From assembly GCA_902765485.1 (NCBI GenBank), contig CACWZZ010000024.1:1-37207 (forward strand): a stretch of DNA of 37,207 nt, read 5' to 3'. Position numbers and translations under genes: made by a program. The DNA is from an uncultured Bacteroidales bacterium. Lineage in GTDB: Bacteria; Bacteroidota; Bacteroidia; Bacteroidales; Paludibacteraceae. Positions 12,140 through 26,790 of the stretch are shown here, in pieces; positions within the stretch are counted from its first letter, which is position 1; every line of letters begins with the position of its first letter. Under the pieces are notes generated by a model. That model was not told the DNA's origin. It worked only from the letters and a program-made list of their open reading frames with translations, and ran no database searches.

Positions 12140-12147
12140 AATTCAAT

Positions 12148-12171: not shown

Positions 12172-12175
12172 CTTC

Positions 12176-13861: not shown

Positions 13862-15148
13862 TTATTCTTTGTTCTTTAACCATGTTTTAGGCGTTAGTTT
13901 TGTGCCATCAGGTAAAATGGGTTTCCGGAGTACGGAGACCCATTTTGGTCTTCCTTTAGAGCCATCCTGCGACTTATACTCATAGCTGCGCGGGCAAGGA
14001 TTAGCGGGATCGAACTCCGGGCGTTTCTGGATAAGCCCCGTGTGCCAGCCTTCGGCGTTCAGCACGCCCTCGTCCCATGTGGTATATGCCCATACAGTCT
14101 CTCCCCATGTCCTCCACGGACGTGCCAGCCAGACCTGCTGGCTGACGGCTGACGGCTGATGGCTGACGGCTGATAGTTCCTCCTCCGTCGCCAGCCGTAT
14201 ATGACATTTATAAAACAATAGTCCCCTGCTTTCGAATTTTGACTTTCGACTTTCGACTTTATCCCCCTCCCTTGAGGGGTGAAGAGCTCCGCTCGATCGA
14301 GCGTCCTGTGGACGGTCGTAGAACTCTCTCGGGGTGGGGTTACTCCTACCGGCTGCAATATAGCATTTATCTCCTTTCTCTCCGTTGATATTGGCGACGA
14401 TCGTAGCGCGGTCCACAGCCATCGTCATGCCGCCGAAGATGAAGTCCACGCCGCCTTGCAATACTCCTTTCTCCCAATAAATACTCGCTCCTTCGTCGCC
14501 GTAGAGCACGTCCTGCCTTCCGACCGCGCGGCAGTTCTTCAAATGCGCATTCTTTGCCCCCTCGGTAAACGAAATAGCAGCCGCGCGCTCGCGGTATTTC
14601 TTCAGCTGCACCTCCGTGCTCCCAACCTCTTTCGGACGCACAGGCATCACTTTCTTCGGACGCTCTTTCTCCGTCCATGGCATGTCGCTCTGGCTGATGT
14701 CCACCAGACTGTCTGCCGCCTCAAGGTCGCAGACATAGAGATTGAATGAGTTCTCAAAGATAATATTCTCTGCCGTGAAATCCGGCGCAGTAACGAGCAC
14801 AGAAGCGTTCCATCGCCGCTCACGGCTTCCGCCGTAATTGACCCTATTTCCCATACTCCGATACTGATATCCGTGTCCGTAGTACCAAGTGATCCGCACG
14901 GCATTAGGATCGCAATCCACGCCGCCGTTCTGCAATCCGATAGAAGGCTTCCGGCTGGCGTTCTTGATCGTCAAACCGGGCACATCAATCGTAATCTCCT
15001 CGCGGTACGTCCCCGGCTCAATGAGGATCGTCGTCCGCTCGCCCTTCTGTTCATACACCGTCCGCGCGCTATCCAGCGCGTCATTGATCCGCTCCCCCTG
15101 CCCCACATGAAGCACCAGAACCAATATACTTGCCAAAAAACTATTCAT
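13862..15148 (-). CDS. Secreted pectinesterase with low-complexity in-frame inserts
   Basis: A 428-residue carbohydrate esterase family 8-like enzyme that demethylates pectin. It has a short signal peptide, then the parallel beta-helix markers GTYREEI, GRQDVLYGD, GGVDFIFGG (catalytic Asp region) and LARPWRTWGE (family signature with the usual Gly replaced by Ala). Two inserts sit between the conserved blocks. One reads HPSREGDKVESRKSKFESR, encoded by a run of 7-nt units (14229-14263) plus a CCCCTCC-type palindrome. The other reads SAVSHQPSAVSQQ, encoded by five 7-nt units (14140-14174), directly before the LARPW motif. The frame stays open through both. The enzyme may still be active, because the inserts lie where loops are expected. 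It has its own promoter. Confidence 0.88.
   Translation of the reverse strand: MNSFLASILVLVLHVGQGERINDALDSARTVYEQKGERTTILIEPGTYREEITIDVPGLTIKNASRKPSIGLQNGGVDCDPNAVRITWYYGHGYQYRSMGNRVNYGGSRERRWNASVLVTAPDFTAENIIFENSFNLYVCDLEAADSLVDISQSDMPWTEKERPKKVMPVRPKEVGSTEVQLKKYRERAAAISFTEGAKNAHLKNCRAVGRQDVLYGDEGASIYWEKGVLQGGVDFIFGGMTMAVDRATIVANINGEKGDKCYIAAGRSNPTPREFYDRPQDARSSGALHPSREGDKVESRKSKFESRGLLFYKCHIRLATEEELSAVSHQPSAVSQQVWLARPWRTWGETVWAYTTWDEGVLNAEGWHTGLIQKRPEFDPANPCPRSYEYKSQDGSKGRPKWVSVLRKPILPDGTKLTPKTWLKNKE
14140..14174. repeat. Heptamer repeat GGCTGAC/T, five units, inside the pectinesterase
   Basis: On the plus strand GGCTGAC, GGCTGAC, GGCTGAT, GGCTGAC, GGCTGAT run without a gap. Translated in the minus frame they give a 7-residue periodic peptide (SAVSHQP, SAVSQQ). 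The same unit occurs at 19714-19741. Confidence 0.92.
14229..14263. repeat. Heptamer repeat CTTTCGA, five units, inside the pectinesterase
   Basis: CTTTCGA, ATTTTGA, CTTTCGA, CTTTCGA, CTTTATC. Translated on the minus strand it gives KVESRKS, KFESR. It is followed at 14264-14279 by a CCCCT...AGGGG palindrome that resembles the one at 15207-15223. Confidence 0.88.
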
Positions 15149-15290
15149 AAATCACTAATCTTTAATTACTTGCGTTGCGTTAACTTTTCCATCCTATTTC
15201 TTAACTCCTCCCCTTTAGGGAGGTTGGGTGGGGCTTGTCCTCTTCATCTCCCTCCTGACTTTTTCTCTTTACCGAGCACGTTTGCGCCTG
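15149..15290. other. Pectinesterase leader with a CCTCCC palindrome
   Basis: The transcript leader on the minus strand. It holds a hairpin CCTCCC-CTTTA-GGGAGG at 15207-15223 followed by TTGGGTGGGG, a form that looks like a dispersed REP-type palindrome and is echoed inside the pectinesterase gene near 14264-14345. Confidence 0.45.
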
Positions 15291-15322
15291 CAAATGTACT
15301 GCTTTTTTTTGATATATGCAAA
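15291..15322 (-). promoter_or_regulatory. Promoter of the pectinesterase
   Basis: On the minus strand TTTG (15322-15319) and TACATTTG (15298-15291) are 20 nt apart. The leader to the ATG at 15148 is about 140 nt. Confidence 0.7.
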
Positions 15323-15387
15323 TTTTCCTGCGATTTTCGATATTCTTCGTCTTTTATATTCTCTGTGTTTTATATTCTTCGTCTTGT

Positions 15388-15540
15388 GCCGACTGCCAGT
15401 CGGCTTCCTTCTTCTAACCAGCAATCGGCGAGGTCACCCCCGCCGATTGTTGGTTGTTTGTTCGTTGTTCCCTTCTCGCGCATTTTTGCGCGAGCTTTCT
15501 TTCTCTTTCTTTCTTCTTTTCCAGGGCAATTCGATTGCCC
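15388..15540. repeat. Array of four perfect hairpins separated by T-rich spacers
   Basis: H1 at 15388-15404 (GCCGACTGCCAGTCGGC). H2 at 15418-15453 (stem CAATCGGCG/CGCCGATTG, loop 10). H3 at 15475-15494 (CTCGCGCA-TTTT-TGCGCGAG). H4 at 15524-15540 (GGGCAAT-TCG-ATTGCCC). The spacers are 13, 21 and 29 nt and nearly pure pyrimidine or T/G. The stems are unrelated in sequence. The array lies between two divergent promoters, so it is in no annotated transcript. Open frames across it are not convincing genes. Confidence 0.75.
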
Positions 15541-15663
15541 GCCATGTATGTCTGTCTCTCTGCGGAGAATGTACATCTGTCCGTCGCGTAGAATTTTCTG
15601 TGTCTTGATCCCGAATTGCGTGTCGTGAACAATCTAAATTACGGGAAGAAAAAATAATAAGGC

Positions 15664-15684
15664 GTTCAAACCCTCGCCAAACGC
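15664..15684. repeat. Direct repeat bounding the AT-rich cassette, left copy
   Basis: Seventeen bases AAACCCTCGCCAAACGC (15668-15684) are identical to 18067-18083; with the preceding GTTC/GTTT the match is 20 of 21. The copies bracket three AT-rich genes. Confidence 0.7.
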
Positions 15685-15720
15685 TGAAATGTATTTTTGA
15701 AGAAAATTTATCTCAGAAAG

Positions 15721-15752
15721 TTTGCATATTCCGTTAATTTATAGTACCTTTG
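15721..15752 (+). promoter_or_regulatory. Promoter of the AT-rich unknown gene
   Basis: TTTG at 15721-15724 and TACCTTTG at 15745-15752, spacing 20 nt. Confidence 0.72.
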
Positions 15753-15769
15753 CACCCGAAAAAGCATCC

Positions 15770-15832
15770 ATGTATGAAAACATCCGGCACTTAATGGACA
15801 ACTATCACAAATACTATATTAATACACATTAG
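15770..15832 (+). CDS. Possible 20-codon leader ORF
   Basis: ATG at 15770 to TAG at 15830-15832 encodes a 20-residue peptide rich in His, Tyr and Asn (MYENIRHLMD at its start). It ends 4 bp before the ATG of the next gene and begins about 18 nt after the -7 box. It could be a translated leader that affects the following gene, or chance; there is no independent support. Confidence 0.25.
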   Translation: MYENIRHLMDNYHKYYINTH

Positions 15833-15836
15833 AATT

Positions 15837-16652
15837 ATGGAATATCAGGATTTAGTAAATCAATTTAAGGAATCGTACAGACAAATCTTCGAAGTTCAGA
15901 AATCTGAAGGCTCTATCTCTTGGGCTCAACATAAGACATCTAATCCGAACGAATTAGTTAGTCCTACTATTCCCTTTGTTGGCAAAGATTATCTTGCGCA
16001 GAAAACAAAGATTCTTCTGTATGCAAGCGCAGAAAATCTTGTGGGATATAACGGCTATCTTGATGATGATAGTTATGCTATCAACCGTCATCGTTCTTGG
16101 TTTGATACGAAGAACTATGATTTCTTTCCAAAAGTCCATATAAGACCAATAGAAGACGGCAGTTTAGTAATAGTACTTCGCTATATATGTGAAAAATTAG
16201 GTATTGAAATGCCGGATACTCCCAAAGATTTTTTAGAGTCTATCTCATTTGCTAACTTTGGAAAATTCTCCATACAAACAGATTCAAACAATAAAGACTA
16301 TGCAGGAAAAAAGGACAAATTAGATTGTTCCATGCCATATATTAAAGTTGATCTGGAATTATTACGCCCAGATGTAATTGTTATATTCAATTCCATATAC
16401 AGGAAAGAGAAACAAAGTATCAACGAGATAAAAGGAAATGCACAAATAATTCGGATTTGCCAAATCAATGCAGGAACAGTAAATCGCTTAATAAGCAAAA
16501 AAAACTCATATAAAGATGTGAATGAATTATCTCCTGTAATCAAAGAATGGTACGACTTTGCACATTTTAATCAGAATGGGTTCAGTGGAAAGACCCACCA
16601 AAATTTCCTGTCTGTATTTACATATTTAGATAATATCTTGAAGCAAAAATAA
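15837..16652 (+). CDS. Unknown protein, weakly uracil-DNA-glycosylase-like
   Basis: A 271-residue soluble protein with no signal peptide. It is clearly AT-richer than the genes on either side, which suggests transfer. Segments PFVGKDYLAQKTKILLYASA (about 46-65), SFANFGKFS (about 140-148) and LRPDVIVIFNSIY (about 178-190) recall the strand order of the uracil-DNA-glycosylase superfamily (a glycine-containing loop, then a later hydrophobic strand after RPD). The catalytic motifs of named families are not clearly present, so I leave it unassigned. It has its own promoter and a strong terminator shared with the convergent WG-repeat gene. Confidence 0.7.
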   Translation: MEYQDLVNQFKESYRQIFEVQKSEGSISWAQHKTSNPNELVSPTIPFVGKDYLAQKTKILLYASAENLVGYNGYLDDDSYAINRHRSWFDTKNYDFFPKVHIRPIEDGSLVIVLRYICEKLGIEMPDTPKDFLESISFANFGKFSIQTDSNNKDYAGKKDKLDCSMPYIKVDLELLRPDVIVIFNSIYRKEKQSINEIKGNAQIIRICQINAGTVNRLISKKNSYKDVNELSPVIKEWYDFAHFNQNGFSGKTHQNFLSVFTYLDNILKQK

Positions 16653-16683
16653 TAAAGCGAGGGCACGAAACCCTCGCTTTATT
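16651..16683. terminator. Bidirectional terminator
   Basis: AATAAAGCGAGGG (16651-16663) and CCCTCGCTTTATT (16671-16683) form a perfect 13-bp stem with a 7-nt loop between convergent genes. Its right arm shares AAACCCTCGC with the boundary repeats at 15668 and 18067. Confidence 0.88.
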
Positions 16684-17114
16684 TAAGCATTGTTCTCAAA
16701 CTCCTGACAAAGTTTTGCTCTCAGTTCTTTATACTCGTATTCATAGGGATAAAGCATCTTGAAATCTTTATCCACACAACCGCATTTGTCATGTTGGTCT
16801 TTGACAATAAAATATCCGGTGGTTTTGAACGGAACAATGAACTTAAAGACAGGCGGAATAGTTACTATCCCCTCCGGATTCATAACTCCCCAATATCCAT
16901 CTTGGAAGAACTGCAACCTGTCCGGAGCAATCCATTGCAAGGGACGGAAGAAAGTTCCTTTCGGATATTCAATCCAGTTTTCCTTTAATCGGGTCTCATG
17001 CAGGACACAGTTGCCCTGCATGATTACTACTCTGTCGGAGAAATGATTGATTGCCAACACAAAACCGTCCGACGTCGGCGTGCCTAATAATTCCAATCTG
17101 TTGTTATTTTGCAT
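16683..17114 (-). CDS. Small WG-repeat-like protein
   Basis: A 143-residue protein without a signal peptide. It contains WG-type repeats, most clearly YWGVMNPEGIVTIPPVFKF (about 73-91), and a weaker CGCVDKDFKMLYPYEYEYKE near the end. WG repeats form beta-hairpin units of unknown binding role. It starts 7 bp after the stop of the larger WG-repeat gene, so the two form an operon and may derive from each other or bind each other. Function unknown. Confidence 0.75.
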   Translation of the reverse strand: MQNNNRLELLGTPTSDGFVLAINHFSDRVVIMQGNCVLHETRLKENWIEYPKGTFFRPLQWIAPDRLQFFQDGYWGVMNPEGIVTIPPVFKFIVPFKTTGYFIVKDQHDKCGCVDKDFKMLYPYEYEYKELRAKLCQEFENNA

Positions 17115-17121
17115 ATGTTTC

Positions 17122-17991
17122 TTATTTTAGTTCGTTTATGGTTTTAAGCATTTGTTCCAATATGGTACAGAGGTCTTTGTAGGTGGCCTCTTTCACTATT
17201 TTGTTTTCTTTCACAAAATAGATCCGTCCGTTCTTCTCATTCTTAGTCAAACGATAGCCGGACTTTGAACTGAATGGTTCGATGAGATGGTTCTCCCACG
17301 CCTCTATTAAATCAATGGGTTTGCCGTTGCGGTTAATGAAGAAACATTTGCCGCCACGTTTGACTGCTATCTCATCCAAATTGTCCGTTACATCGAGGTA
17401 ATCGTATCGTGCCGGAACAAGCACTTTCCCCTTACTATCCAGCAAGCCGAATTTGCCTTTTAGCGTTTTCACTTTGTATGTATCTGTAGCACGCTTGTGT
17501 ACCACATACGCATACTTACATTTAATAAACGGCTTGCCATCTGTTGTGATGATTCCGGAGAGACCGCTTTGGTCTCTAACGTGAACGAAGCCGATGTTCT
17601 CTCCAATGCTTGACATTTGTGTGTATTGTGCCGGAACGACCACGTTTCCCTTCTCGTCCTTAATTCCGAACATCCCATTTTCTTGGAAAGCTATTCTACT
17701 TGGTCCGACGAGATACTCTTGCTCCATCGGCTTGCGCTCTACTGCCGGACGTTCGTAATACTTCTTTTCACCGGTAGACGCATCAAACAATAATTCCTTG
17801 CGAGAACCATCTGTGTTCTGGAACGCGAATGTGTTTTTCTCAACATGCGTCGCAATTTCAAATTCTCCGGCAGGAAAGATGATTCGTCCCTGACGGTTGA
17901 TAATTCCCTCTTTACGGTCGCAAGTTGTGTAGATGGCATAGTTTCCATAGAAAGCTGAGATTGTACTCAAATTGCTAATTTTTAGTTTCAT
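17122..17991 (-). CDS. WG-repeat protein
   Basis: A 289-residue cytoplasmic protein built of about five WG-type units. Examples are KEGIINRQGRIIFPAGEF (28-45), MFGIKDEKGNVVVPAQYTQM (107-126), LSGIITTDGKPFIKCKYAYV (144-163), and KFGLLDSKGKVLVPARYDYL (179-198). A C-terminal helical segment follows (TYKDLCTILEQMLKTINELK). The WG family (PF14903) is common in Bacteroidota and its role is not known. The promoter is not obvious: AACTTTTG on the minus strand near 18033-18026 has one mismatch to the -7 consensus. Confidence 0.85.
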   Translation of the reverse strand: MKLKISNLSTISAFYGNYAIYTTCDRKEGIINRQGRIIFPAGEFEIATHVEKNTFAFQNTDGSRKELLFDASTGEKKYYERPAVERKPMEQEYLVGPSRIAFQENGMFGIKDEKGNVVVPAQYTQMSSIGENIGFVHVRDQSGLSGIITTDGKPFIKCKYAYVVHKRATDTYKVKTLKGKFGLLDSKGKVLVPARYDYLDVTDNLDEIAVKRGGKCFFINRNGKPIDLIEAWENHLIEPFSSKSGYRLTKNEKNGRIYFVKENKIVKEATYKDLCTILEQMLKTINELK

Positions 17992-18062
17992 AAATTTTGA
18001 AATTAAACTGTTATTTTATCAAAAGTTCGCGCACGCGTGCATACCCGTACGCACATAAAGGA

Positions 18063-18083
18063 GTTTAAACCCTCGCCAAACGC
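18063..18083. repeat. Direct repeat bounding the AT-rich cassette, right copy
   Basis: Matches 15664-15684 at 20 of 21 bases, in direct orientation. It lies upstream of the WG-repeat pair and downstream of the toxin-antitoxin terminator. Confidence 0.7.
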
Positions 18084-18103
18084 CGTTTTTGATTGGAACA
18101 CAA

Positions 18104-18127
18104 AAAAAGCAGAGTAAAACTCTGCTT
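18104..18127 (-). terminator. Terminator of the PIN toxin-antitoxin operon
   Basis: On the minus strand AAGCAGAG and CTCTGCTT pair over 8 bp around a 5-nt loop (arms 18127-18120 and 18114-18107), followed by a T-run. The stem is about 95 bp after the toxin stop codon. Confidence 0.8.
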
Positions 18128-18222
18128 GTATACTTGTCATTTTCTCCTTTTCTGGAGTGCCGGAAGCATCGTCGCTTACCGACGCACCGCTTTTTTTTAC
18201 GCTGTCGGTGCCAGCGGTATTA

Positions 18223-18636
18223 TTATTGACGACGCAAAAGCAGCATAAATTCCGTGAGATTACGTACATCTACTTTTGGATAGTCATAATTTGCTAATTC
18301 TTCAAAATGCTTGTCGTTGCTTACTATAAATGTAGCTCCGGCGGTAATTGCGCAGTCAACAAATTTGTTGTCATCCTCATCTGCAGTAATCATATGAAAA
18401 TGATAATACGGCGTAACACGTTCTGTGTTAGGAGAGGACAGAATAAGTTCTACGATGTCTTCTGCAAACTGCGCATCGCCGGTACGTCTTCCTATAATCT
18501 CACGGTACTCAAGCAAAATCTCATTTGTAAAACACAGCGTGTATTGCTGCGCATAGAAAGCATCCCACACTTCTTTATGATAAGACTGCGGGAAGATGAT
18601 TTGCAGCAAACAATTGGTGTCAAGGACGATTTTCAT
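18223..18636 (-). CDS. PIN-domain toxin of a type II toxin-antitoxin pair
   Basis: A 137-residue PIN ribonuclease of the TIGR00305/COG1569 type. The acidic site is visible: D6 in MKIVLDTN, a Glu at 43 (LLEYREI), D94 in DNKFVDCA and D108 in SNDKHFE. These residues bind Mg2+ or Mn2+ to cut RNA. The start at 18636 was chosen because it matches the family N terminus and overlaps the antitoxin stop in ATGA; an upstream in-frame start would lie inside the antitoxin gene. Target RNA unknown. Confidence 0.88.
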   Translation of the reverse strand: MKIVLDTNCLLQIIFPQSYHKEVWDAFYAQQYTLCFTNEILLEYREIIGRRTGDAQFAEDIVELILSSPNTERVTPYYHFHMITADEDDNKFVDCAITAGATFIVSNDKHFEELANYDYPKVDVRNLTEFMLLLRRQ

Positions 18637-18851
18637 TGGTACGGAAGACGTTCGTGAATACTGCACATCTCGTCTAATTTCTGCTGATCCAGATCCAACT
18701 TGTCCCATAGTTCATCCGCACGTTTCGCTACTTTTGCACGATAATATGACTGTAGCACGTTCTGCAAATCCAATTGACTCTCTTTCGTTTGGGAGAAAGA
18801 GAATAATTGCAGCAAGTACAATTGTGTCGGATTTAATTGAGTGGCAACCAT
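18633..18851 (-). CDS. Putative antitoxin of the PIN pair
   Basis: A 72-residue protein directly upstream of the PIN toxin, with a 4-bp ATGA overlap that signals translational coupling. The N terminus MVATQLNPTQLYLLQLFSF is followed by a helical, charged region with VLQSYYRAKVAKRADELW near 32-49. No DNA-binding fold is obvious from sequence alone. The role as antitoxin is inferred from position, size and overlap. Confidence 0.75.
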   Translation of the reverse strand: MVATQLNPTQLYLLQLFSFSQTKESQLDLQNVLQSYYRAKVAKRADELWDKLDLDQQKLDEMCSIHERLPYQ

Positions 18852-18891
18852 AAACCTAAACGTTTTTTGTGTTACTAAACCTTTTCGGCTG

Positions 18892-18899
18892 CAAAATTA
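18892..18899 (-). promoter_or_regulatory. -7 box of the toxin-antitoxin promoter
   Basis: TAATTTTG on the minus strand (18899-18892), about 40 nt before the antitoxin ATG. A clear -33 TTTG is not seen; CTTG at 18923-18920 is at a suitable distance. Confidence 0.6.
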
Positions 18900-18903
18900 C
18901 AAC

Positions 18904-18935
18904 AAAAAAATGACATACACAAGAGGAATGCCATT
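18904..18935 (-). terminator. Terminator of the long minus-strand operon
   Basis: On the minus strand AATGGCAT (18935-18928) pairs with ATGTCATT (18916-18909) with one G-U pair, and is followed by seven T. It lies just after the CxxC protein stop. The 3' half TGTCATTTTTTT matches the ends of the hairpins at 4730-4742 and 4799-4810. Confidence 0.65.
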
Positions 18936-18947
18936 TTTCTTCCTTTT

Positions 18948-19109
18948 TTATGCTTCGTCCACCAACATTTGGCAGTTCTTGCAATCGAAGCGGAGCTCCA
19001 GCACTTTGCCGATACGCAGACGCAGGTACCGCGGCTCCTTGTCTTTCGGATAAGGATTCGTCTTGCGGCAATGCCCCAACTCAAACAGCAGGCAGTAGCG
19101 GCAGGTCAT
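18948..19109 (-). CDS. Split C-terminal CxxC domain of the U32 peptidase
   Basis: A 53-residue ORF starting MTCRYCLLFELGHC and ending FDCKNCQMLVDEA. The two cysteine pairs (CRYC and CKNC) with intervening LGHCRKT are the conserved cysteine-rich end normally fused to Bacteroidota U32 peptidases. Here it is in another frame. Its ATG overlaps the TGA of the U32 gene (TGATG), the classic arrangement for translational re-initiation. An earlier in-frame ATG at 19130 overlaps the U32 gene by 22 bp. It probably binds zinc or a cluster and works with the U32 chain. A simple frameshift mutation or sequencing error is the alternative. Confidence 0.7.
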   Translation of the reverse strand: MTCRYCLLFELGHCRKTNPYPKDKEPRYLRLRIGKVLELRFDCKNCQMLVDEA

Positions 19110-20611
19110 CAAAGGACGGTTCGTCTCCATTCGTTCAATATACTAATCGGTATAAAATAGGGTTGGCTCTCAATCTTGATCTCCCGCGCAATAAACGGCG
19201 TGTCGCCTAATTTGGACAACTGTGTGCGGATCGTCTCTATCGCTTTCTCGGGGTTCTTGGCGGGCTCATGAGCAAACGCAAAAGAGCCGACCCATACCTT
19301 CCCTGAAGGGATGGCTTTATATTGCAACTCAAAACCCTCTTCGGTCTCTCGAAACAAAATGTCCACCGGTATGCGCCGCTCGGAATGCAACGAGCGCACA
19401 AACTCTACGTCCAGATTGCGGTACATCGCTCCCTCTCTTGGCGAGAGGTTCTTGTTGATCTTAATGATATTTCCTTCCACGCCGTTGACGGAGAAACCTT
19501 CGCTGCCGACTGTCAAACCGTCGCCGTTATGCAGCACGACTCCTTCTTTGAGCCGTACGCGCAAGGTGTTTCCTCGTGCATCCAGCAATTCACCGATATA
19601 CTCTCCGGTCGATTTAGGAGTGTCCCAATTAGCCATAGGACGTGTCCTGCCATGCAAGAAATAGTCCGTAGCACCGCGATGAAACGTCTTCTCAGGATTA
19701 GGGATGAAGCCACGGCTGATAACTGACGGCTGATGGCTGAATGCAGAAAGCTTCTCCCGATAATAAGCGGTGATATTGGTCACGTAGTCGGCATCTTTGA
19801 GCCGTCCTTCGATCTTAAAAGTCGTCACGCCGGCGTCAATCAACTCCTCCAGATAAGCGCTTCTGTCCAGATCCTGAAGGGACAGCAAGTACCGCTGATG
19901 AATAGGTTTGCCTTCTTCGTCGAGCACCTCGTTCATATTGCTGTCCAGCAGGTCGTACGCCATGCGGCAGTACTGCGCGCAAGCACCTCTGTTGGCGCTT
20001 CGCCCGGAGAGCACTTCGGATATATAGCACCGTCCGGAATAGCTGACGCACAGCGCGCCATGTACAAAGGCTTCCAACTCAATATCCGGCACCGCTTCGT
20101 GGATCGCACGGATCTCTTCTATACTCAGTTCTCGCGCCAACACCACGCGCTTGAAACCCAAGTCGCGCAGTCTCGCCACCTGTTCGGGCGTCCTGTTGTC
20201 GCACTGGGTAGAGGCATGTAGCCGAATAGGCGGCAGGTCAAAATCCAGCAGGTGCAGATCCTGAATGATGAGTGCATCGACTCCGATGCGGTATAGATCA
20301 TGTATCATCTGCACCGCCTGCGGGTACTCGTCCTCATGGAGCAGCGTATTAACCGTGACAAGCACTTGCATGCCGTACGTGTGCGCGTAGCGCACCACTT
20401 CCGCCAGATCCTCAATGCTGTTTCCTGCCGCTTGGCGCGCACCAAAAGCAGGCGCTCCGATATAGATAGCGTCTGCACCGGCTTGGATTGCCGCTTGCGC
20501 TACTTCCTTGTCTCTCGCCGGAGAGAGGAGGCTAAGCGGTACATCACAATGCCGGCTGTCACCGACACGTTCATCGAGTGCTTGGTGCCGTATTGAGGGA
20601 TCTCTATACAT
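19109..20611 (-). CDS. U32-family peptidase
   Basis: A 500-residue member of the U32 (collagenase-like) family, which in other bacteria includes RlhA and TrhP-type RNA hydroxylation factors; the precise role here is unknown. The TIM-barrel start LLSPARDKEVAQAAIQAGAD lies near 28-47, and the family signature EAFVHGALCVSYSGRCY at about 180-196, followed by CAQYC. The chosen ATG (20609-20611) lies about 110 bp inside the upstream SpoU gene; the next in-frame start is beyond the conserved barrel. The first roughly 25 residues have no family counterpart. A heptamer insert encodes SAFSHQPSVISRG at about 288-300. The cysteine-rich tail is on a separate, overlapping ORF. Confidence 0.88.
   Translation of the reverse strand: MYRDPSIRHQALDERVGDSRHCDVPLSLLSPARDKEVAQAAIQAGADAIYIGAPAFGARQAAGNSIEDLAEVVRYAHTYGMQVLVTVNTLLHEDEYPQAVQMIHDLYRIGVDALIIQDLHLLDFDLPPIRLHASTQCDNRTPEQVARLRDLGFKRVVLARELSIEEIRAIHEAVPDIELEAFVHGALCVSYSGRCYISEVLSGRSANRGACAQYCRMAYDLLDSNMNEVLDEEGKPIHQRYLLSLQDLDRSAYLEELIDAGVTTFKIEGRLKDADYVTNITAYYREKLSAFSHQPSVISRGFIPNPEKTFHRGATDYFLHGRTRPMANWDTPKSTGEYIGELLDARGNTLRVRLKEGVVLHNGDGLTVGSEGFSVNGVEGNIIKINKNLSPREGAMYRNLDVEFVRSLHSERRIPVDILFRETEEGFELQYKAIPSGKVWVGSFAFAHEPAKNPEKAIETIRTQLSKLGDTPFIAREIKIESQPYFIPISILNEWRRTVL
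19714..19741. repeat. Heptamer repeat GGCTGAT type, four units, inside the U32 gene
   Basis: GGCTGAT, AACTGAC, GGCTGAT, GGCTGAA. The minus-strand translation SAFSHQPSVIS closely matches SAVSHQPSAVS from the unrelated pectinesterase at 14140-14174. Confidence 0.88.
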
Positions 20612-21045: not shown

Positions 21046-21446
21046 ATCTTAAATGGTAAATTTACGCGAAGCACATGTGCGTCTTCGTCGATGTCCAATA
21101 TAAAATCTTCATGCAGCGGCAACATCCGTCCGTCTTCGAGCGTCGCGAGTGTGTTGATGGTGCTCTCATCAATGGATGCTATTATACCGACGAGATACCG
21201 ACGACCATCCGTGTTCAGATCTTCGATGGAATAGCCCACCAAGTCCTGCCATGTCATCAGTCCGTCCTCTGCGTCCTGTATGTCCGTCCGCAGCACAAAA
21301 GCCTCTTCGCCCCGCAGCTCGGCGATGTCGGAAGAGCGGAAAGGGACAAAAAGTCCGTCTCGCTGCACGAAGATGAACTCCGGCAGGTCTTTGTCGTGCG
21401 CCTTTTTGAGCACTCCGATGGATAATAAATCGTCTTTTGTGATCAT
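21042..21446 (-). CDS. rimM: Short RimM-like 16S rRNA processing factor
   Basis: A 134-residue protein aligned with RimM, which helps mature the 30S head by binding ribosomal protein S19. The N terminus MITKDDLLSIGVLKKAHDKD matches the RimM start (IGxLxKxHG). Then it goes directly to FIFVQRDGLFVPFR, and the C-terminal PRC-barrel part (VGYSIEDLNTDGRRYLVGII to LPLHEDFILDIDEDAHVLRV) is complete. RimM is usually near 165-175 residues, so part of the N-terminal barrel is missing and the conserved glycine after the His is replaced. It overlaps both neighbours by 4 bp. Confidence 0.82.
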   Translation of the reverse strand: MITKDDLLSIGVLKKAHDKDLPEFIFVQRDGLFVPFRSSDIAELRGEEAFVLRTDIQDAEDGLMTWQDLVGYSIEDLNTDGRRYLVGIIASIDESTINTLATLEDGRMLPLHEDFILDIDEDAHVLRVNLPFKI

Positions 21447-21940
21447 TGCCCTTGTGTGATAGTTAATCGTCCGTCCGAATTGACGAGTGTCAGTTTGCGC
21501 AATGCTTCATGAGCAATCCCTTTCTGCGGTACAGCTGTGCCGGAGAGCAGGTCGTATTGCTCTTCGCAAGTGGTGCAGACGGCGAACCCTCCGTTCACTT
21601 CGCAGGGATGGCATGCACCTTTCTCGGCGCAGTTGGGACACGCCAGATCGTAGGCGTTGTAGCCGAAGAAACTGACGAACACCAGCACTCCTCCATAACC
21701 GTAAGCGTCCATAGCTGACGAGGAGGTGACCCATTTATTGTCAAGGAAATACCCGTCTCTGTTCGCAATGACGAACGACGAAGTGGTCTCCTGTTTGAAA
21801 TGGACAAACGCACCCATCTTGGTGTCGATCACCACGCGCACAGGGTATGCCGGCACGCTACTGCGAAAGGTCGTTCCTTCGCAGCCGCAGAGCGCAAACA
21901 GCACCGTAAAAAATAAGATTAGTTGGCGATAATACTGCAT
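21443..21940 (-). CDS. Rieske-like lipoprotein with three CxxC pairs
   Basis: A 165-residue lipoprotein (lipobox ending at Cys20). The region NAYDLACPNCAEKG (about 95-108), then CHPC, then FAVCTTCEEQYDLLSGTAVP (119-138) and ALRKLTL resembles the Bacteroidota Rieske-like lipoprotein family. The two Rieske His ligands are absent; instead there are six Cys in pairs at 101/104, 110/113 and 122/125. Zinc or disulfide bonds are more likely than a 2Fe-2S cluster. It overlaps FKBP upstream by 22 bp and rimM downstream by 4 bp. Confidence 0.72.
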   Translation of the reverse strand: MQYYRQLILFFTVLFALCGCEGTTFRSSVPAYPVRVVIDTKMGAFVHFKQETTSSFVIANRDGYFLDNKWVTSSSAMDAYGYGGVLVFVSFFGYNAYDLACPNCAEKGACHPCEVNGGFAVCTTCEEQYDLLSGTAVPQKGIAHEALRKLTLVNSDGRLTITQGQ

Positions 21941-22461
21941 ATATGCACGGTGTAAATGAGGGTGGAATAGGGCGGAATATAACTCTGAGTGCCTTCTGTG
22001 CCGGACCCTTCGGCTGAACCGTAGTCGTTCGTGTCGTATTTGTTCTTGTCGTAACCCAGATAAGCAGGGATATACAGTTCGATGTCGCCGTGTACATGCA
22101 CTTTATGGCACCCTTCGGCAAAGCCGGCAATCACGTTAGCCAAATTCAGCGTCGCATTGTTGGCAGACTCGATGATGTTCCCATTGACGAGTTTGAGCGA
22201 GTAGTCGCAAACGATAGTGCCCGTTGGGTTCGGCGTGGCTTCACCGGTGTCCTTCAGCGGATCTTTGATGATCTTGTATTGCAATCCGGATGGCGAAGTC
22301 TCCACACCCGGTTGCAGTTTGTTATTCTCCAGCCATATCTCGTTTTGAGTCTTCCAGTCCGCCCAATTATTGGTCTTGCAGGATGGCAGTAAGACAAGCG
22401 CGATAAGCGCAATAACTATCCACTTTAAACTTTCAACTTTCAACTTTATTTTGCAATCCAT
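21919..22461 (-). CDS. FKBP-type peptidyl-prolyl isomerase lipoprotein
   Basis: A 180-residue lipoprotein with lipobox LPSC at residue 28 and an FKBP domain at about 55-178: SPSGLQYKIIKDP, TIVCDYSLKLVNGNIIESA, VIAGFAEGCHKVHVHGDIEL, YIPAYLGY and the C-terminal IPPYSTLIYTVHI. It would assist folding of exported proteins. Several catalytic aromatic positions of model FKBPs differ (for example the second GCHKV instead of GLxxM), so activity is not certain. The first 13 residues (MDCKIKLKVESLK) are encoded by a heptamer repeat. The 5' end overlaps the EnvC-like gene by 16 bp. Confidence 0.87.
   Translation of the reverse strand: MDCKIKLKVESLKWIVIALIALVLLPSCKTNNWADWKTQNEIWLENNKLQPGVETSPSGLQYKIIKDPLKDTGEATPNPTGTIVCDYSLKLVNGNIIESANNATLNLANVIAGFAEGCHKVHVHGDIELYIPAYLGYDKNKYDTNDYGSAEGSGTEGTQSYIPPYSTLIYTVHICSIIAN
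22423..22450. repeat. Heptamer repeat CTTTCAA, four units, at the FKBP start
   Basis: CTTTAAA, CTTTCAA, CTTTCAA, CTTTATT. It encodes the positively charged start of the FKBP signal peptide. Confidence 0.82.
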
Positions 22462-23645
22462 AATTCGGGATTTTGAATGTTTTTATCTTTGTATATCTGG
22501 AAATATAATTCTGTTTTCTGGTCTTGGTCCGGGTCGGTGAAGATGGTGCCGATGACCTGTTTGGTCTCCACTTTGTCGCCTTGCTTGACGTTCAATTTGG
22601 AGAGGTTGGAATAGACGGTTCTGTAGTTACCGTGCTGAACGATCACGGCGTACGTGTTGGACACAAGGAAACAACTGGTCACTTCGCCTTTATATACCGC
22701 GCGCGCTTTCGCCCCTGCTACGGTCTGCAGGTAGATCCCCTTGTTGTCCATGGTCACTTGGCTATAGACGGGATGCTGCTGTTTGCCGAAATGTCCGCTG
22801 ATCATACCTTGCTCCACGGGCCAAGGCAGACGTCCTTTGTTCCCCTCAAATCCGCCGGCGATCAGTTTCTGCTCTTTGGTCAGCGTCGTCTTGGAGGATT
22901 TCTCTGCCTGTTTGCGGACCATGTCGTCGATCTTCTTGTTCAGCTCATTCACTTTCTTCTGCTTCTGCTTGATCTGTTTGGTCAGGTCTTTCTCTTTGCT
23001 TTTGAGTTGGGACAGCATTTTCTGCTGCTTGCGCTCGTCGCGTTTGAGGTTCTCCTGCTCTCTCTTGCGGGTGCTCAATGCCGTCTGTTTATCGTTTTTG
23101 TTGGCTTGCAGCAACTCGTTCTGAGTGTCTATCTCCGCTTGGGTGCGCTCAATACGGCGCACTTGTTCCTGACGGAAATGCGCGAACTCCTGCAGGTACC
23201 GCGCGCGACGGGCTAACTGTTGAAAACTGTCGCTACTGAGCAGGAACAGAAGCGGCGACTGCTGGATGCGGGCGTAATGGCTTTTGCATACCATCTCTGC
23301 GTAGTCGGCTTTGTAACCGTCCAGCACAGTCTGCAACGAGTCGCGGCGACCGCTGAGACGGTTCATCTCTCTATTGAGAGCCGTGATCTCGCTGTCCAGC
23401 GTGGAAATCAATCGCTTTTGGTTCTTGATATTCTGACCGATCAACTGCAACTTGTTCTCCGTCGCAGTCTCGTCTTTCTTGGTCTGTTTCAGCATTTTGT
23501 TGGTCTGCTCGATCTCCTGCTGCAGCTTCTTCTGCTTCTTCTGCAGATCCTTCACACTCTCCGCCATAACTACAGAAAACTGCAAGCAGAAAAACGCAAG
23601 GACGATTAGTCCCAACAATTTCCTATATGTCCTTTCACCTTTCAT
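22446..23645 (-). CDS. EnvC-like murein hydrolase activator with degenerate M23 domain
   Basis: A 399-residue exported protein: signal peptide to about residue 28, long coiled coils (about 29-110 and 155-260), then a LytM/M23 domain (about 275-399). The zinc ligands are lost: the HxxxD site reads DNKGIYLQT and the HxH site reads ELYFQIYK. This matches EnvC, which activates amidases rather than cutting murein itself. It probably acts in septal peptidoglycan splitting. It is flanked by DUF4292 and TPR genes, the usual Bacteroidota neighbourhood. The ATG at 23645 is one unit of a heptamer repeat; other units offer ATG or GTG in other frames. Confidence 0.88.
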   Translation of the reverse strand: MKGERTYRKLLGLIVLAFFCLQFSVVMAESVKDLQKKQKKLQQEIEQTNKMLKQTKKDETATENKLQLIGQNIKNQKRLISTLDSEITALNREMNRLSGRRDSLQTVLDGYKADYAEMVCKSHYARIQQSPLLFLLSSDSFQQLARRARYLQEFAHFRQEQVRRIERTQAEIDTQNELLQANKNDKQTALSTRKREQENLKRDERKQQKMLSQLKSKEKDLTKQIKQKQKKVNELNKKIDDMVRKQAEKSSKTTLTKEQKLIAGGFEGNKGRLPWPVEQGMISGHFGKQQHPVYSQVTMDNKGIYLQTVAGAKARAVYKGEVTSCFLVSNTYAVIVQHGNYRTVYSNLSKLNVKQGDKVETKQVIGTIFTDPDQDQKTELYFQIYKDKNIQNPELWIAK

Positions 23646-23666
23646 CTTTCACCTTTCATCTTTCCT
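23632..23666. repeat. Heptamer repeat CTTTCAC/T, five units, across the DUF4292-EnvC junction
   Basis: On the minus strand the units read AGGAAAG, ATGAAAG, GTGAAAG, ATGAAAG, GTGAAAG. The upstream stop codon is at one edge and the EnvC start codon is inside. Confidence 0.92.
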
Positions 23667-24237
23667 ATAGCCATTTGGAAATATCTATTCGTGTGTATCT
23701 GTCTAACCGTTGGTTTCCTATGCGTACCGGCACGTCCAGTCTGCGCGGGGAATAATTGATGACGAGTTCGATCACGTCCATGCCGAAAGTATATTGCAGC
23801 CTTGCTTTCTCTTCTCCGGTCGGCAGTTCGCCGGTGCAAACCTGTTGCAGCACATCCCAGTTCAAGGAAGGTGTCAACTTGCGGTTCAGTTCAGCGAACG
23901 AAGCAATCGCATACCGTCCGTGTACTTTGTCGATGGCAATAATCTCCATCGGTGTGGCTTCAATGCGCATCATTTCGATGCCCATCATCGGCATGACCGA
24001 GATCACAATCATCGAATCACGCACAGTTTGCATCGTCAAGTTCGCAGAGATCTTGTCCTCGTTGGTGTACACCGTTGCGCGTGCGCCTTGGATCAGACAG
24101 GTATGCCAAACCGGTTCCTCCGGCTCCTGACTTACTTCTGACGGCTCTTGGCTGACAGCGTGTTTCTTCGCCCCGCAGGAACTAAACAACACCATGCACG
24201 GAATCAATATGATATAAATTATCCTTCTTCCTTTCAT
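23665..24237 (-). CDS. DUF4292 lipoprotein
   Basis: A 190-residue lipoprotein (lipobox SSC at residue 21) of the DUF4292 group, periplasmic and of unknown role. After the lipidated Cys comes a low-complexity stretch AVSQEPSEVSQEPEEP encoded by a 7-nt repeat, then the conserved part: ISANLTMQTVRDSMIVISVM (about 63-82), GIEMMRIEATPMEIIAIDKV (about 86-105) and FGMDVIELVINYSPRRLDVP. Its place between the TPR and EnvC-like genes is conserved in many Bacteroidota, which suggests a shared envelope function. Confidence 0.82.
   Translation of the reverse strand: MKGRRIIYIILIPCMVLFSSCGAKKHAVSQEPSEVSQEPEEPVWHTCLIQGARATVYTNEDKISANLTMQTVRDSMIVISVMPMMGIEMMRIEATPMEIIAIDKVHGRYAIASFAELNRKLTPSLNWDVLQQVCTGELPTGEEKARLQYTFGMDVIELVINYSPRRLDVPVRIGNQRLDRYTRIDISKWL
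24122..24156. repeat. Heptamer repeat GGCTNNN type, five units, inside the DUF4292 gene
   Basis: GGCTCCT, GACTTAC, TTCTGAC, GGCTCTT, GGCTGAC. Translation on the minus strand gives the 7-residue periodic AVSQEPS, EVSQEPE directly after the lipobox. It is more diverged than the other arrays. Confidence 0.75.
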
Positions 24238-24286
24238 CTTTCACCTTTCACCTTTCATCTTTCACTTTTCACCTTTCGCCTTTCAC
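24231..24286. repeat. Heptamer repeat CTTTCAC/T, eight units, across the TPR-DUF4292 junction
   Basis: The longest array, 56 bp: CTTTCAT, CTTTCAC, CTTTCAC, CTTTCAT, CTTTCAC, TTTTCAC, CTTTCGC, CTTTCAC. It encodes the last residues of the TPR protein (KVKGER), its stop codon, the whole gap, and the ATG of the DUF4292 gene. Confidence 0.95.
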
Positions 24287-25168
24287 TTTAATAAGGTGTT
24301 CTGTGATCACGTCTCGGTTCTCGTTCGTCGCATTCTGCAGAGCTTTAGAGAGGTAGAACCGCGCCAACTCGTTCTGTCCCTGCAAATGCATAATCCAGCC
24401 GTAAGTGTCCAGAAAAGTGGGGTTGTTGGGCTCTTCGCGGATGGTCATTTGACTCATCTGTTCGGCTTTCTTCAAATCTCCTTTGTGGGTAGCTAAGAGG
24501 TACGCGTAGTTATTGAGAACCACCAGGTTATACGGCGCAATCTCCAATATCCGCTCGTACATGGCGTAGAGTTCTTTGGGTTTCGCACCCGTGCCTTCCA
24601 TCAGTTCGAGCCGGAAAATCAGAAACTGCAGGTTCGTCGGGTCGGTCTTCAAGTAACGGTCTATCTCCGCGATAGCTTTTTTGTATTTGCCCCACATGGC
24701 ATAGATGCGGTACCGGGCGATGGCGCTATAAGCGTCGTAGCCCTCTTTCTCGTCTATCTCGTCCTGCATGGCTAACGCGCTCTTCCATTGCTTGTCCGCT
24801 ATGTGTCGCACTTTGATGCGCTCTAACAGATCCGTCGGCGCGGTACCATAAGGCATGGCTTGGTAAGCACGGTCGAAATACTCCTGCGCTTTGTCCGTCT
24901 GCTTCATGCCTTGATAGAGGATGCCTAAATAGTACAGCGTCTGTCCGTCGGATGGGTCGAGTGCCTGGCAGAACTGCAACAGCGCATATGCGTCTGCATA
25001 CCGCTCTTCCTCAATCGCCTGACGCGCTGCGTACCAATAGTAACGGAACTGCTGTTGCTGCTCCACGCTCAAAGCAGCAGCTTCCGGCTGCGGCTTTTTC
25101 TTTGCGCTCACCGGCAGCACCAACACCAGCATCGCAAGGAGAATTACTATGTACCTTTCATTTTTCAA
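24269..25168 (-). CDS. Exported TPR-repeat protein
   Basis: A 299-residue tetratricopeptide-repeat protein with an N-terminal signal peptide (MKNERYIVILLAMLVLVLPVSA). TPR-type helices are visible from about residue 40 to 290, for example YADAYALLQFCQALDPSDGQ, TDKAQEYFDRAYQAMPYG, YERILEIAPYNLVVLNNYAY and SQMTIREEPNNPTFLDTYGW. It is probably a periplasmic scaffold acting with the DUF4292 and EnvC-like proteins. The only start that keeps the signal peptide is TTG at 25166-25168, itself inside a heptamer repeat. The last six residues KVKGER also come from a repeat. Confidence 0.85.
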   Translation of the reverse strand: MKNERYIVILLAMLVLVLPVSAKKKPQPEAAALSVEQQQQFRYYWYAARQAIEEERYADAYALLQFCQALDPSDGQTLYYLGILYQGMKQTDKAQEYFDRAYQAMPYGTAPTDLLERIKVRHIADKQWKSALAMQDEIDEKEGYDAYSAIARYRIYAMWGKYKKAIAEIDRYLKTDPTNLQFLIFRLELMEGTGAKPKELYAMYERILEIAPYNLVVLNNYAYLLATHKGDLKKAEQMSQMTIREEPNNPTFLDTYGWIMHLQGQNELARFYLSKALQNATNENRDVITEHLIKVKGER

Positions 25169-25189
25169 CTTTCACCTTTCAATTCTCAA
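25155..25189. repeat. Heptamer repeat, five units, across the dut-TPR junction
   Basis: CTTTCAT, TTTTCAA, CTTTCAC, CTTTCAA, TTCTCAA on the plus strand. It covers the end of dut, the 17-bp gap and the TTG start of the TPR gene. Confidence 0.88.
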
Positions 25190-25620
25190 TTCCTCCCGCT
25201 GTGTCCGAATCCTCCTGCGCCGCGTTCGGTCTCGCTCAGTTCGGTCACTTCCACTACCTCCGGACTCTCGTGCTTGGCAATCACCATCTGGCAGATGCGC
25301 TCTCCCGGTTCGATCGTCTGCGCCTCACCACTCAGGTTAATAAGTATGACTCCCACTTCTCCGCGGTAATCGGCATCAATGGTGCCCGGTGTGTTCAGAA
25401 CGGTCAACCCGCGTTTGAGTGCCAGACCGCTACGCGGACGAATCTGTGCCTCGTAACCTGCCGGTAGTTCGATAAACAATCCCGTCGGGATCAACTTCCG
25501 CTCCAGCGGCTGCAACGTAATAGCAGCCTCGATATTGCATCGTATATCCATTCCTGCCGCTTGTGCACTCTCGTACCGCGGTAACGGATTCTTGCTTTTA
25601 TTTACAATCTTTAAAACCAT
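25186..25620 (-). CDS. dut: dUTP diphosphatase (dUTPase)
   Basis: A 144-residue trimeric dUTPase. It hydrolyses dUTP to dUMP and pyrophosphate, keeping uracil out of DNA and supplying dUMP for thymidylate synthesis. The five motifs are present: [47 protein letters not shown] and the C-terminal [12 protein letters not shown]. The start is the ATG at 25618-25620 ([11 protein letters not shown]), the normal family N terminus; the reading frame extends three codons further only to a TTG inside a heptamer repeat. Confidence 0.96.
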
Positions 25621-25622
25621 AC

Positions 25623-25657
25623 TTTTCAACTTTCACCTTTCAACTCTCAATTCTCAA
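25623..25657. repeat. Heptamer repeat, five units, across the DGK-dut junction
   Basis: TTTTCAA, CTTTCAC, CTTTCAA, CTCTCAA, TTCTCAA. It fills the gap between the kinase-like stop and the dut start. Confidence 0.88.
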
Positions 25658-26574
25658 AACCTCTTCTCCACCAGCACGCGCAGTCCGTCTTCAACAATCC
25701 GGATGTGAATATCTTTCTCCATCTCCACGGGGTCACCGTCTATATGGAACGGCGCTGCGCTCTCGCGCTCCAGCGTCACCTCTTTGGCGCGGATGGTGTT
25801 CATGAAATGGCTGTCGTCAATACTGCCGGCGAACAGACGAAGCGCCAGACTCGCGCTGCCCAAGATTGCGTGGCTCGACATCAGCATGATGTCCATCATG
25901 CCGTCCTGCACACTCGCTTTCGGAGCAATCAACGCTTCGTAACCCCATTGGTTCGCGTTAGCAAACGTGATCAAGAATGCCTTGTGCGTCACATCTATAC
26001 CATCGCCTATCAGGTGGTAGTTCTGCGGCGTGTAACTGAACACATCATGCAGAATACTTTGCAGATACGTGCTGAACCCGCGTTTGTTGCTGCCCGCAAA
26101 ATGGTCTGCTATGAGCGCATCAAAACCCGTGCCGCATGTACTCACGAATAGACGACCGTTCGCCAGCCCGTAATCTACGCTGATAGGCTCCGAATGGTTT
26201 ATCATTTCTATCGCTTTCTGTGTGCGCACGGGTACGTTTAGATGCCGCGCAAACCCGTTTCCGCTACCCATCGGGAGGATACCTAACGCCGTGCTCCTTT
26301 CACCTTTCGCCTTTCCCTTTTCACCTTTCACTATTCCGCGCGCTACCTCGTTCACCGTGCCGTCACCGCCGACGGCTACCACTGCGTCGAAACCCATCCG
26401 GGCAAACTGGTATGCCATTTCCGTGGCGTGACCCGGGTACTCCGTGAAAGCGATGTTCGGCAACCATTGCGCGCTGTCCAGCGTCTGCATGATGAGTTTC
26501 GGCAACTTACGCTTTGCGTTCTGTGTATCTTTGCTTCCCGATACGGGATTGATGATAAATGCTATATTTTTCAT
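25654..26574 (-). CDS. Diacylglycerol kinase-like lipid kinase (DAGK catalytic family)
   Basis: A 306-residue protein of the DgkB/YegS type, likely phosphorylating a membrane lipid with ATP. The N terminus MKNIAFIINPVSGSKD and the nucleotide motif GGDGTVNEVARGI (69-81) are followed by an insert KGEKGKAKGERS (about 83-94) encoded by a 7-nt repeat, and then the conserved LGILPMGSGNGFARHL (97-112). In relatives the two motifs are joined by a short loop, so the insert is extra. The start at 26574 is the ATG matching the family; an earlier in-frame TTG is in a repeat. It is the first gene of the long minus-strand operon. Confidence 0.9.
   Translation of the reverse strand: MKNIAFIINPVSGSKDTQNAKRKLPKLIMQTLDSAQWLPNIAFTEYPGHATEMAYQFARMGFDAVVAVGGDGTVNEVARGIVKGEKGKAKGERSTALGILPMGSGNGFARHLNVPVRTQKAIEMINHSEPISVDYGLANGRLFVSTCGTGFDALIADHFAGSNKRGFSTYLQSILHDVFSYTPQNYHLIGDGIDVTHKAFLITFANANQWGYEALIAPKASVQDGMMDIMLMSSHAILGSASLALRLFAGSIDDSHFMNTIRAKEVTLERESAAPFHIDGDPVEMEKDIHIRIVEDGLRVLVEKRF
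26297..26331. repeat. Heptamer repeat, five units, inside the lipid kinase gene
   Basis: CTTTCAC, CTTTCGC, CTTTCCC, TTTTCAC, CTTTCAC on the plus strand. It encodes KGEKGKAKGER between two nucleotide-binding motifs. Most units are the same as in the junction arrays. Confidence 0.92.
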
Positions 26575-26611
26575 GTGTCCTAATTTAATTCTCAATTCTC
26601 AAAGACGGCTG

Positions 26612-26754: not shown

Positions 26755-26790
26755 ATGTATGTATGTATGTATGTATGTATGTATGTATGT
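26755..26790. repeat. (ATGT)9 tetranucleotide microsatellite in the leader
   Basis: Nine perfect ATGT units between the promoter and the first lipoprotein gene. Slippage would change leader length by four bases. Tetranucleotide tracts of this kind are used for phase variation in some bacteria, usually inside genes or promoter spacers. Confidence 0.95.

Follow-up and report, generated by a model that had tools for sequence, protein, structure and literature searches.

How do unrelated proteins of one genome come to carry in-frame peptides made from DNA that repeats every seven nucleotides? The question is raised by a 37,207-nt stretch (assembly GCA_902765485.1, contig CACWZZ010000024.1; hereafter the window), part of the 2.1-Mb genome G000 of an uncultured Paludibacteraceae bacterium. 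A preliminary description of the window had pointed to such peptides in four proteins, and all four were found in place: SAVSHQPSAVSQQ in a pectinesterase, SAFSHQPSVIS in a U32 peptidase, AVSQEPSEVSQEP in a DUF4292 lipoprotein, and KGEKGKAKGER in a lipid kinase. Comparison with related genomes revealed gain and loss of units, presence and absence of arrays, in-place replacement of one unit family by another, and families specific to a genome; in G000 and its sister species G083 the arrays were also sorted by strand. Probably, the window samples a genome-wide heptanucleotide satellite system whose arrays slip, spread, and replace each other and are sorted by translation, and the four proteins would be four addresses that tolerate them.

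Replacement of arrays at fixed protein loops

The kinase loop was filled with GTGAAAG units in G000, L270, and L204 and with TCAGCNN units in G083. Identity between G000 and G083 was 96% for the kinase, 98% for the U32 peptidase, and 88–97% over long aligned DNA blocks of the window. L270 was the outgroup to G000 and G083 in a tree of 75 species. Because both L270 and L204 share GTGAAAG with G000, the difference is most simply read as an in-place swap from GTGAAAG to TCAGCNN on the branch of G083.

Corresponding loops were sought in 82 sources: 80 named loci, G000, and the piece of G083 containing the kinase. The named loci were from gut metagenome-assembled genomes, many labelled Paludibacteraceae and many from ruminants. 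Loops were mapped in 75 sources for the kinase, 81 for U32, 56 for DUF4292, and 34 for each of the two pectinesterase loops; unmapped sources had no gene or no anchors, and the pectinesterase rows of G003, a false match, were left out. Under a single rule the loop was heptameric in 19/75 (kinase), 19/81 (U32), 11/56 (DUF4292), 4/34 (pectinesterase loop 1), and 11/34 (pectinesterase loop 2) cases, so that most mapped U32 and DUF4292 loops were non-heptameric. Random 63-nt segments of the same genes, which may overlap the loops, were heptameric in 13/738 cases.

The kinase loop was a 12-residue turn in 54 of the 75 species and was filled, at 18–29 residues, in 21. Fillings were assigned by eye (a few were degenerate, and that of L235 was called “other”) to about six families, including GTGAAAG, TCAGCNN, GGTTACG, GGTTCAC, GGCGAAT, and AGTCGAA, and by eye their register was mostly alike. 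Peptides encoded by this loop were chemically unlike in related species (KGEKGKAKGER, KAVSLQQSAVSSTQ, RGNGLPVMGYG, SGSRFSDHGS), with the DNA periodicity retained. The U32, DUF4292, and pectinesterase loops likewise varied in family and presence, and held CATTCCA, AGAATAC, ACCAATC, AAATCAY, CAACGAC, AAATGGA, or palindromic CTCCCC-type repeats. The preliminary description had traced the peptides to 7-nt DNA instead of a common protein ancestor, and had named as refuting evidence conserved peptides at these sites in orthologues lacking related DNA repeats. That check was run and no such peptides were found: at these sites the orthologues had different heptamers or palindromic repeats, or lacked repeats altogether. 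The derivation from DNA was borne out.

On the tree, the distribution of filled and empty kinase loops (21 and 54) took six changes, and the starred branches also forced at least six. The 21 filled loops required no fewer than 11 changes of family. Monophyly was rejected both for the filled loops (p-AU 4.9e-6) and for the TCAGCNN loops (p-AU 3.4e-5), and with it one ancestral filling of the loop; the tree was a quick one with loops masked and no mixture model, and the tested groups were named after the loops had been seen. Apart from this, L199 and L202, species in different clades, had an identical kinase-loop peptide, KGNGRMANGERA, possibly through horizontal transfer of the loop.

A second in-frame difference between G000 and G083, unpolarized, affected a linker close to the C-terminal end of a large protein, where 34 nt encoding ESIQPSEVSYQ in G000 corresponded to 34 nt encoding SQVPSDQVPST in G083. 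The segment that follows resembles a type IX secretion sorting domain. Pectinesterase loop 1 had no repeat in L270, a shorter palindromic repeat in G083, and a longer repeat with an AGTCGAA array in G000, possibly a stepwise series in that order. At other sites array lengths in G000 differed from those in G083 or L270 by 7, 21, 21, and 56 nt, and several further arrays were identical or nearly so between G000 and G083. The term “self-expanding,” used in the preliminary description, holds because copy number changed in whole units.

The genes and arrays of the window, all on the reverse strand, were as follows:

13862..15148 (−), pectinesterase gene (PF01095 domain), host to two in-frame heptamer arrays and a dispersed repeat
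14140..14173 (−), TCAGCCR array of pectinesterase loop 2, SAVSHQPSAVSQQ, detected by Tandem Repeats Finder (TRF) and the array scan; several families in the orthologous loop
14225..14342 (−), composite insert of pectinesterase loop 1, made up of the AGTCGAA array and a partly palindromic repeat of the dispersed type; 118 nt vs 10 nt in L270
14230..14260 (−), AGTCGAA array, KVESRKSKFESR, detected by TRF and the array scan; missing in G083 and L270
19109..20620 (−), U32 peptidase gene (PF01136)
19709..19747 (−), degenerate TCAGNNN array of the U32 loop, SAFSHQPSVIS
22422..22447 (−), array at the M23-peptidase/FKBP gene junction, detected by the array scan; in G083 the heptamers there belong to a different family and have a palindromic core
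23631..23664 (−), GTGAAAG array directly next to the stop codon of DUF4292, with the first ATG of the M23-peptidase open reading frame (ORF) inside it; one more unit in L270
23665..24237 (−), DUF4292 lipoprotein gene (PF14125)
24124..24158 (−), decayed TCAGNNN array of the DUF4292 linker, AVSQEPSEVSQEP; heptameric in L270, not in the window itself
24231..24284 (−), GTGAAAG array with the stop codon of a TPR protein and the DUF4292 start codon; three more units in G083, eight more in L270
25156..25192 (−), mosaic array TCATTTT TCAACTT TCACCTT TCAATTC at the dUTPase/TPR junction; palindromic repeats at this junction in G083 and L270
25624..25657 (−), array with the kinase stop codon at the lipid-kinase/dUTPase junction; in G083 different heptamers, together with a palindromic element (element B)
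25654..26595 (−), lipid (diacylglycerol-type) kinase gene (PF00781, DAGK_cat; PF19279)
26296..26331 (−), GTGAAAG array encoding KGEKGKAKGER in the kinase loop; sister G083 has TCAGCNN instead, and most mapped species have an empty loop

Abundance and families across genomes

The window contained eight period-7 arrays above the threshold used, namely all of the listed arrays other than those of U32 and the DUF4292 linker; twenty third-order Markov simulations of the window gave zero arrays of any period from 4 to 12. TRF reported six period-7 rows, which corresponded to five of the eight arrays, including those of the pectinesterase and the kinase, and to positions 37171–37203 (with indels). 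Both the U32 array (19709–19747) and the DUF4292 array (ca. 24124–24158) were too degenerate for TRF and for the main threshold. The DUF4292 array of the window also failed the looser rule used for orthologues, which the L270 orthologue passed, and its G083 counterpart was the same decayed TCAG array. As to the suggestion that the four proteins share the same heptamer families, TCAGNNN was common to the pectinesterase, U32, and DUF4292 proteins, but the kinase had GTGAAAG instead. The second pectinesterase array, AGTCGAA, adjoined a dispersed, partly palindromic repeat; window positions 14264–14326, in frame within the pectinesterase, had 60–63-bp copies at 95% identity at two other sites of the genome and weaker ones at several more.

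In the G000 sample, 85 period-7 arrays were found in 575,835 bases, compared with 31 of period 11 (the second commonest period), 28 of period 9, 15 of period 8, and 3 of period 6. Sister G083 contained 59 period-7 arrays in 390,024 bases, and 20 further species of the genus contained 93 in 391,641 bases. The 80 named loci contained 316 in 1,520,446 bases, with at least one array in 62 loci; period 8 was next, with 55. Overall, this gut Paludibacteraceae genus carried about one array per 5–7 kb. Outside the genus, 20 stretches from seven genomes of the phylum gave eight period-7 arrays in ca. 341,000 bases, and several of these genomes ranked among the richer ones in a phylum-wide scan for a TCA pattern. 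In that scan a TCA at every seventh base was present in 98/101 genus genomes and 120/148 genomes drawn over the phylum. The reversed control pattern was also frequent, equally so in many genomes, and TCA was not favored everywhere; G000 did favor it (280 and 228 vs 20 and 20 for the control).

Unit families were partly genome-specific. Array pairs sharing at least 6/7 bases made up 14.9% of pairs within genomes and 7.7% between genomes, a difference reached by 0/500 label permutations. Loop arrays matched other arrays in 13.7% of pairs in their own species and in 5.4% in other species (0/1000 permutations). The same loop matched across different species in 18.4% of pairs, therefore descent counts too. 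The CTTTCAN pattern, counted in 37 genus genomes, was commonest in G000 (90), G015 (61), G034 (43), and G030 (34); G000, G034, and G030 carried this family in the kinase loop, and the kinase match in G015 was weak. G006 and G035, with 18 CTTTCAN each, had an empty kinase loop and a GGTTACG loop, respectively. Another copy of the array flank was present in the sample for 32/196 flanks, a count made without a control. A 25-nt match considered as proof of copying was discarded, as the two loci turned out to share flanking sequence as well.

Strand sorting and stop codons

Of the 144 arrays from G000 and G083, 140 were classified by gene context: 83 between co-directional genes, 42 inside genes, 9 between divergent genes, and 6 between convergent genes. 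Arrays were thus mainly intergenic (98/140 outside predicted genes, 42/140 inside; 4/144 unclassified). Inside genes 30 of 35 oriented arrays were TCA-sense and 5 TGA-sense, with 7 undetermined. Between co-directional genes the bias was opposite, with 59 of 71 oriented arrays TGA-sense, 12 TCA-sense, and 12 undetermined. The upstream stop codon was located within the array in 39/59 TGA-sense cases and in 1/12 TCA-sense cases. In 37 of the 42 coding arrays the sense strand of the unit was open in all frames. Replication strand was considered as a cause of the TGA-sense bias, but only four stretches had arrays beside genes of both strands, and their seven TGA-sense arrays and one TCA-sense array were too few for a decision.

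Two proteins illustrate the pattern. The TPR protein often stops after ...AIK or ...SIK in species without the array; in G000, G083, L270, L204, and L235 it continues into VKGER and ends at the TGA of the array. GTGAAAG kinases of G000, L270, L204, L214, L223, and L198 had, by eye, GGA, TCA, or CGA where a pure array would give TGA. According to the preliminary description the units happen to lack stop codons in the frames used. Chance did not describe G000 and G083, in which orientation was strongly sorted and the TGA-giving unit of the kinase was altered.

The unit consensus could be set as TCANNNN in 118/144 arrays of G000 and G083 (119 by triplet count; 42 expected after shuffling). Mismatch within these arrays was 2.8% at T, 3.7% at C, and 5.8% at A, compared with 9.1–16.1% at the other positions. 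Units open on one strand numbered 124/144, compared with 87.2 after shuffling. Conservation of TCA may reflect selection for stop codons at gene ends or the mode of array propagation.

Process, alternatives, and known systems

Under the satellite account, the genus would carry many short arrays of few units each, in several unit families mixed differently in each species. Whole units are gained and lost, as in replication slippage. The pattern of families suggests that arrays also reach unlinked sites and supplant one another in place. Host replication and repair enzymes, acting through template switching or short non-allelic conversion, are the most likely agents and are proposed because the searches yielded no dedicated enzyme. 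Of the arrays that arrive inside genes, most would have to be lost, and surviving arrays would be sorted by translation. An array reads alike in every frame because seven is not a multiple of three. In G000 and G083, where one strand is usually open in all frames, that strand would survive in loops and linkers if the net length keeps the frame; the opposite strand, usually with TGA in every frame within 21 nt, would survive across gene ends, often providing the stop codon and adding a few new residues at the C-terminus. Whether the process goes as far as overwriting fixed addresses, enzyme loops included, with the family prevailing in that genome is doubtful, though conceivable; protein loops scattered over the genome would in that case undergo concerted evolution, as the side effect of a process at the DNA level that exploits the frame-blindness of 7 nt.

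An origin from classical small mobile elements, i.e., miniature inverted-repeat transposable elements, repetitive extragenic palindromes with their associated transposase (REP/RAYT), or retroelements, would make each array a non-autonomous element or its arm. Dispersed palindromic repeats did accompany arrays, as in pectinesterase loop 1. Element B had an 84-bp core, and all six copies in the G083 sample (L135:8466–8614 and five more) had inverted heptamer-array arms by eye, four by the array detector; no copy was found in the G000 sample. Two cores similar to element B occurred in the G098 stretch L171, and G030, G083, and G092 had further cores flanked by inverted arms. Terminal inverted repeats on the moving unit were seen only for element B and these few other cores, however, and an inverted partner array was not general: 10/237 arrays had one at a match of at least 12/14, vs 14 for random units, and 30 at 11/14, vs 23. 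Palindromic-element arms were thus not supported as the general form of the arrays. Presence/absence pairs read by eye, with no formal scan, gave no consistent target-site duplication or fixed insert length. Y1_Tnp matches occurred in 3/10 array-rich genomes (G073, G098, G035) and 4/12 array-poor genomes (G072, G118, G020, G008), with none in G000 (83% complete), G083 (71% complete), or five more of the array-rich genomes. RVT_1 leaned toward array-rich genomes, occurring in 4/10 (G000, G074, G092, G113) vs 1/12 array-poor (G008), but was not found in array-rich G083, G034 (97% complete), G073, G098, G070, and G035. The search covered these two families in 22 genomes, several of them incomplete, with other transposase families outside it; neither family was common to the array-rich set, and neither RAYT nor reverse transcriptase was supported as a common engine. 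The mobile-element origin is accordingly judged unlikely. The word “mobile” in the preliminary description is supported only as far as dispersal and replacement of families among many sites.

Four other explanations were weighed. Replacement of alleles by homologous recombination between species, with in-place swaps as imported alleles, would fit the peptide shared by L199 and L202; the near-identical flanks of G000 and G083 at swapped sites speak against it, and it leaves the origin of the families unexplained, so that it appears quite unlikely. We hold it similarly improbable that the arrays are regulatory sites for RNA or DNA binding at gene junctions, as suggested for the TAACTGA repeats of Beggiatoaceae. 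The TGA-sense bias between co-directional genes and the positions across stop and start codons agree with such a role, but families change between near neighbors, the bias inside genes is opposite, and stop codons can account for both biases. Pure local replication slippage from chance seeds, with a polymerase favoring 7 nt, accounts for whole-unit differences and for the predominance of period 7. It leaves unexplained both the occurrence of the same families at unlinked sites of one genome and the replacement of families within near-identical DNA, and is very unlikely to suffice. Ordinary linkers, i.e., Ser/Gln/Pro- or Lys/Glu-rich loops under protein selection with accidental periodicity, would suit the apparent tolerance of the sites, among them enzyme loops that vary in length and a linker following a lipobox, but are scarcely credible given unlike peptides in one loop among related species with the DNA periodicity kept, the same units between genes, and the rarity of heptameric random gene segments.

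Several results weigh against the satellite account itself. No copying event was caught with both donor and recipient identified; for the G083 kinase array the best matches elsewhere were 35 nt at 89% and 30 nt at 93%, with no clear donor. The order of variant units was shared over at least 20 nt by 48 pairs of unlinked G000 arrays, compared with a mean of 26.9 and a maximum of 42 over 30 permutations. With a limit of 24 nt, however, 15 pairs were left, vs a permutation maximum of 16, and G083 had 16 pairs at 20 nt, vs a mean of 20.4. The best match between unlinked loci, 49 nt at 90%, extended into the flanks and may be explained by linker paralogy. In the 20 other species the TCA/TGA motif was weaker (44/93 vs 24.7 expected) and not better conserved within arrays, and there was no excess of units open on one strand (55/93 vs 51.4). 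The stop-codon logic is therefore limited to G000 and G083, and no universal TGA/TCA rule is claimed for the genus. Gene context was assigned by a simple home-made gene caller. A reverse transcriptase may play a role in some lineages, as the RVT_1 counts, G000 included, would allow, and part of the turnover may come from horizontal exchange, as the loop peptide of L199 and L202 suggests.

Heptameric repeat systems are already known in cyanobacteria and Beggiatoaceae, and the satellite system of this genus is a variant of these. Cyanobacterial short tandemly repeated repetitive (STRR) heptamers comprise several dispersed families per genome, with small palindromic elements embedded in the arrays, and the same features were seen here; no account was found for STRR of in-frame occupancy with family turnover at fixed protein loops. 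As in heptanucleotide simple sequence repeats of the long (LSSR) or STRR type, head-to-tail 7-nt units were over-represented genome-wide, mainly intergenic, and variable by whole units.

Other published systems were also compared. Heptameric repeats are described as over-represented in many bacteria and little studied, in an account that also mentions Calothrix heptamers (Rehm 2015, PMC4692102). GGGNATC arrays of Xanthomonas and Nostoc resemble the present ones in being dispersed, mostly between co-directional ORFs near stop and start codons, but form G-quadruplexes and are under-represented in coding sequence (PMC4692102), whereas most units here are not G-rich. In Beggiatoaceae, TAACTGA arrays follow the same strand logic: the forward strand has stops in all frames and overlaps gene ends, and the reverse TCAGTTA (LSVISYQ) is open and found inside ORFs (MacGregor 2015, PMC4679880). 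Mobility was considered there with no evident mechanism, and Mrazek et al. 2007 are reported to have linked the predominance of period 7 to polymerase interaction (PMC4679880). G000 and G083 showed this strand logic, heptamer arrays are genome-wide in both systems, and TCAGNNN is close to TCAGTTA. One unit dominates in Beggiatoaceae, with similar units rarely repeated; here, many families coexist and swap at the same addresses, conserved enzyme loops included, in tens of species. The 144 arrays of G000 and G083 had 46 distinct unit consensus sequences, with no predominance of TAACTGA (TCAGTTA).

Rickettsia palindromic elements were reportedly described by Ogata in 2000. They are likewise in-frame, translated DNA in unrelated genes (PMC10969869), and insertions of this kind with empty orthologues were found here. 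Those elements differ in being palindromic, of ca. 150 bp, with a conserved peptide, and excerpts describe no family turnover at one address (PMC10969869); here the DNA was short tandem heptamers with peptides differing by species. A possible transposition mechanism has been suggested for short-repeat satellites (PMC6749651), and high repeat density is reported in Bacteroidota (PMC12699852). Searches of listings and excerpts from open-licence literature, with subscription papers mostly outside their reach, turned up no description of families being exchanged at fixed protein loops. The empty, filled, and swapped loops offer a natural series for following how gene ends and short segments of conserved enzymes are rewritten by repeat DNA. 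With such a series, the reasons for the prevalence of 7-nt repeats in many bacteria become open to test, as does their dispersal with no known transposase. For annotation, peptides of the SAVSHQP or KGER type and short C-terminal tails should, in these genomes, be read as repeat DNA and not as conserved motifs.

Other observations in the window were as follows. The predicted structure of the kinase (mean pLDDT 42) was set aside. An intergenic CTCCCC/GGGGAG palindromic repeat at 15278–15337 had tens of copies in the genome. An 11-bp tandem array at 100–152 was one unit shorter in G083, and an octamer array, AATCTTCA, at 12145–12175 occupied a junction that in G083 held ca. 160 unrelated bases. 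Positions 3620–4594, the end of a methylase-like gene, were ca. 69% identical to G083, compared with an average of 93% over 98–3619, the edge being a stretch boundary from which the true edge may differ; this may represent an exchanged specificity domain. Nine perfect ATGT units were located at 26755–26790, upstream of a small ORF at 26931–27311.

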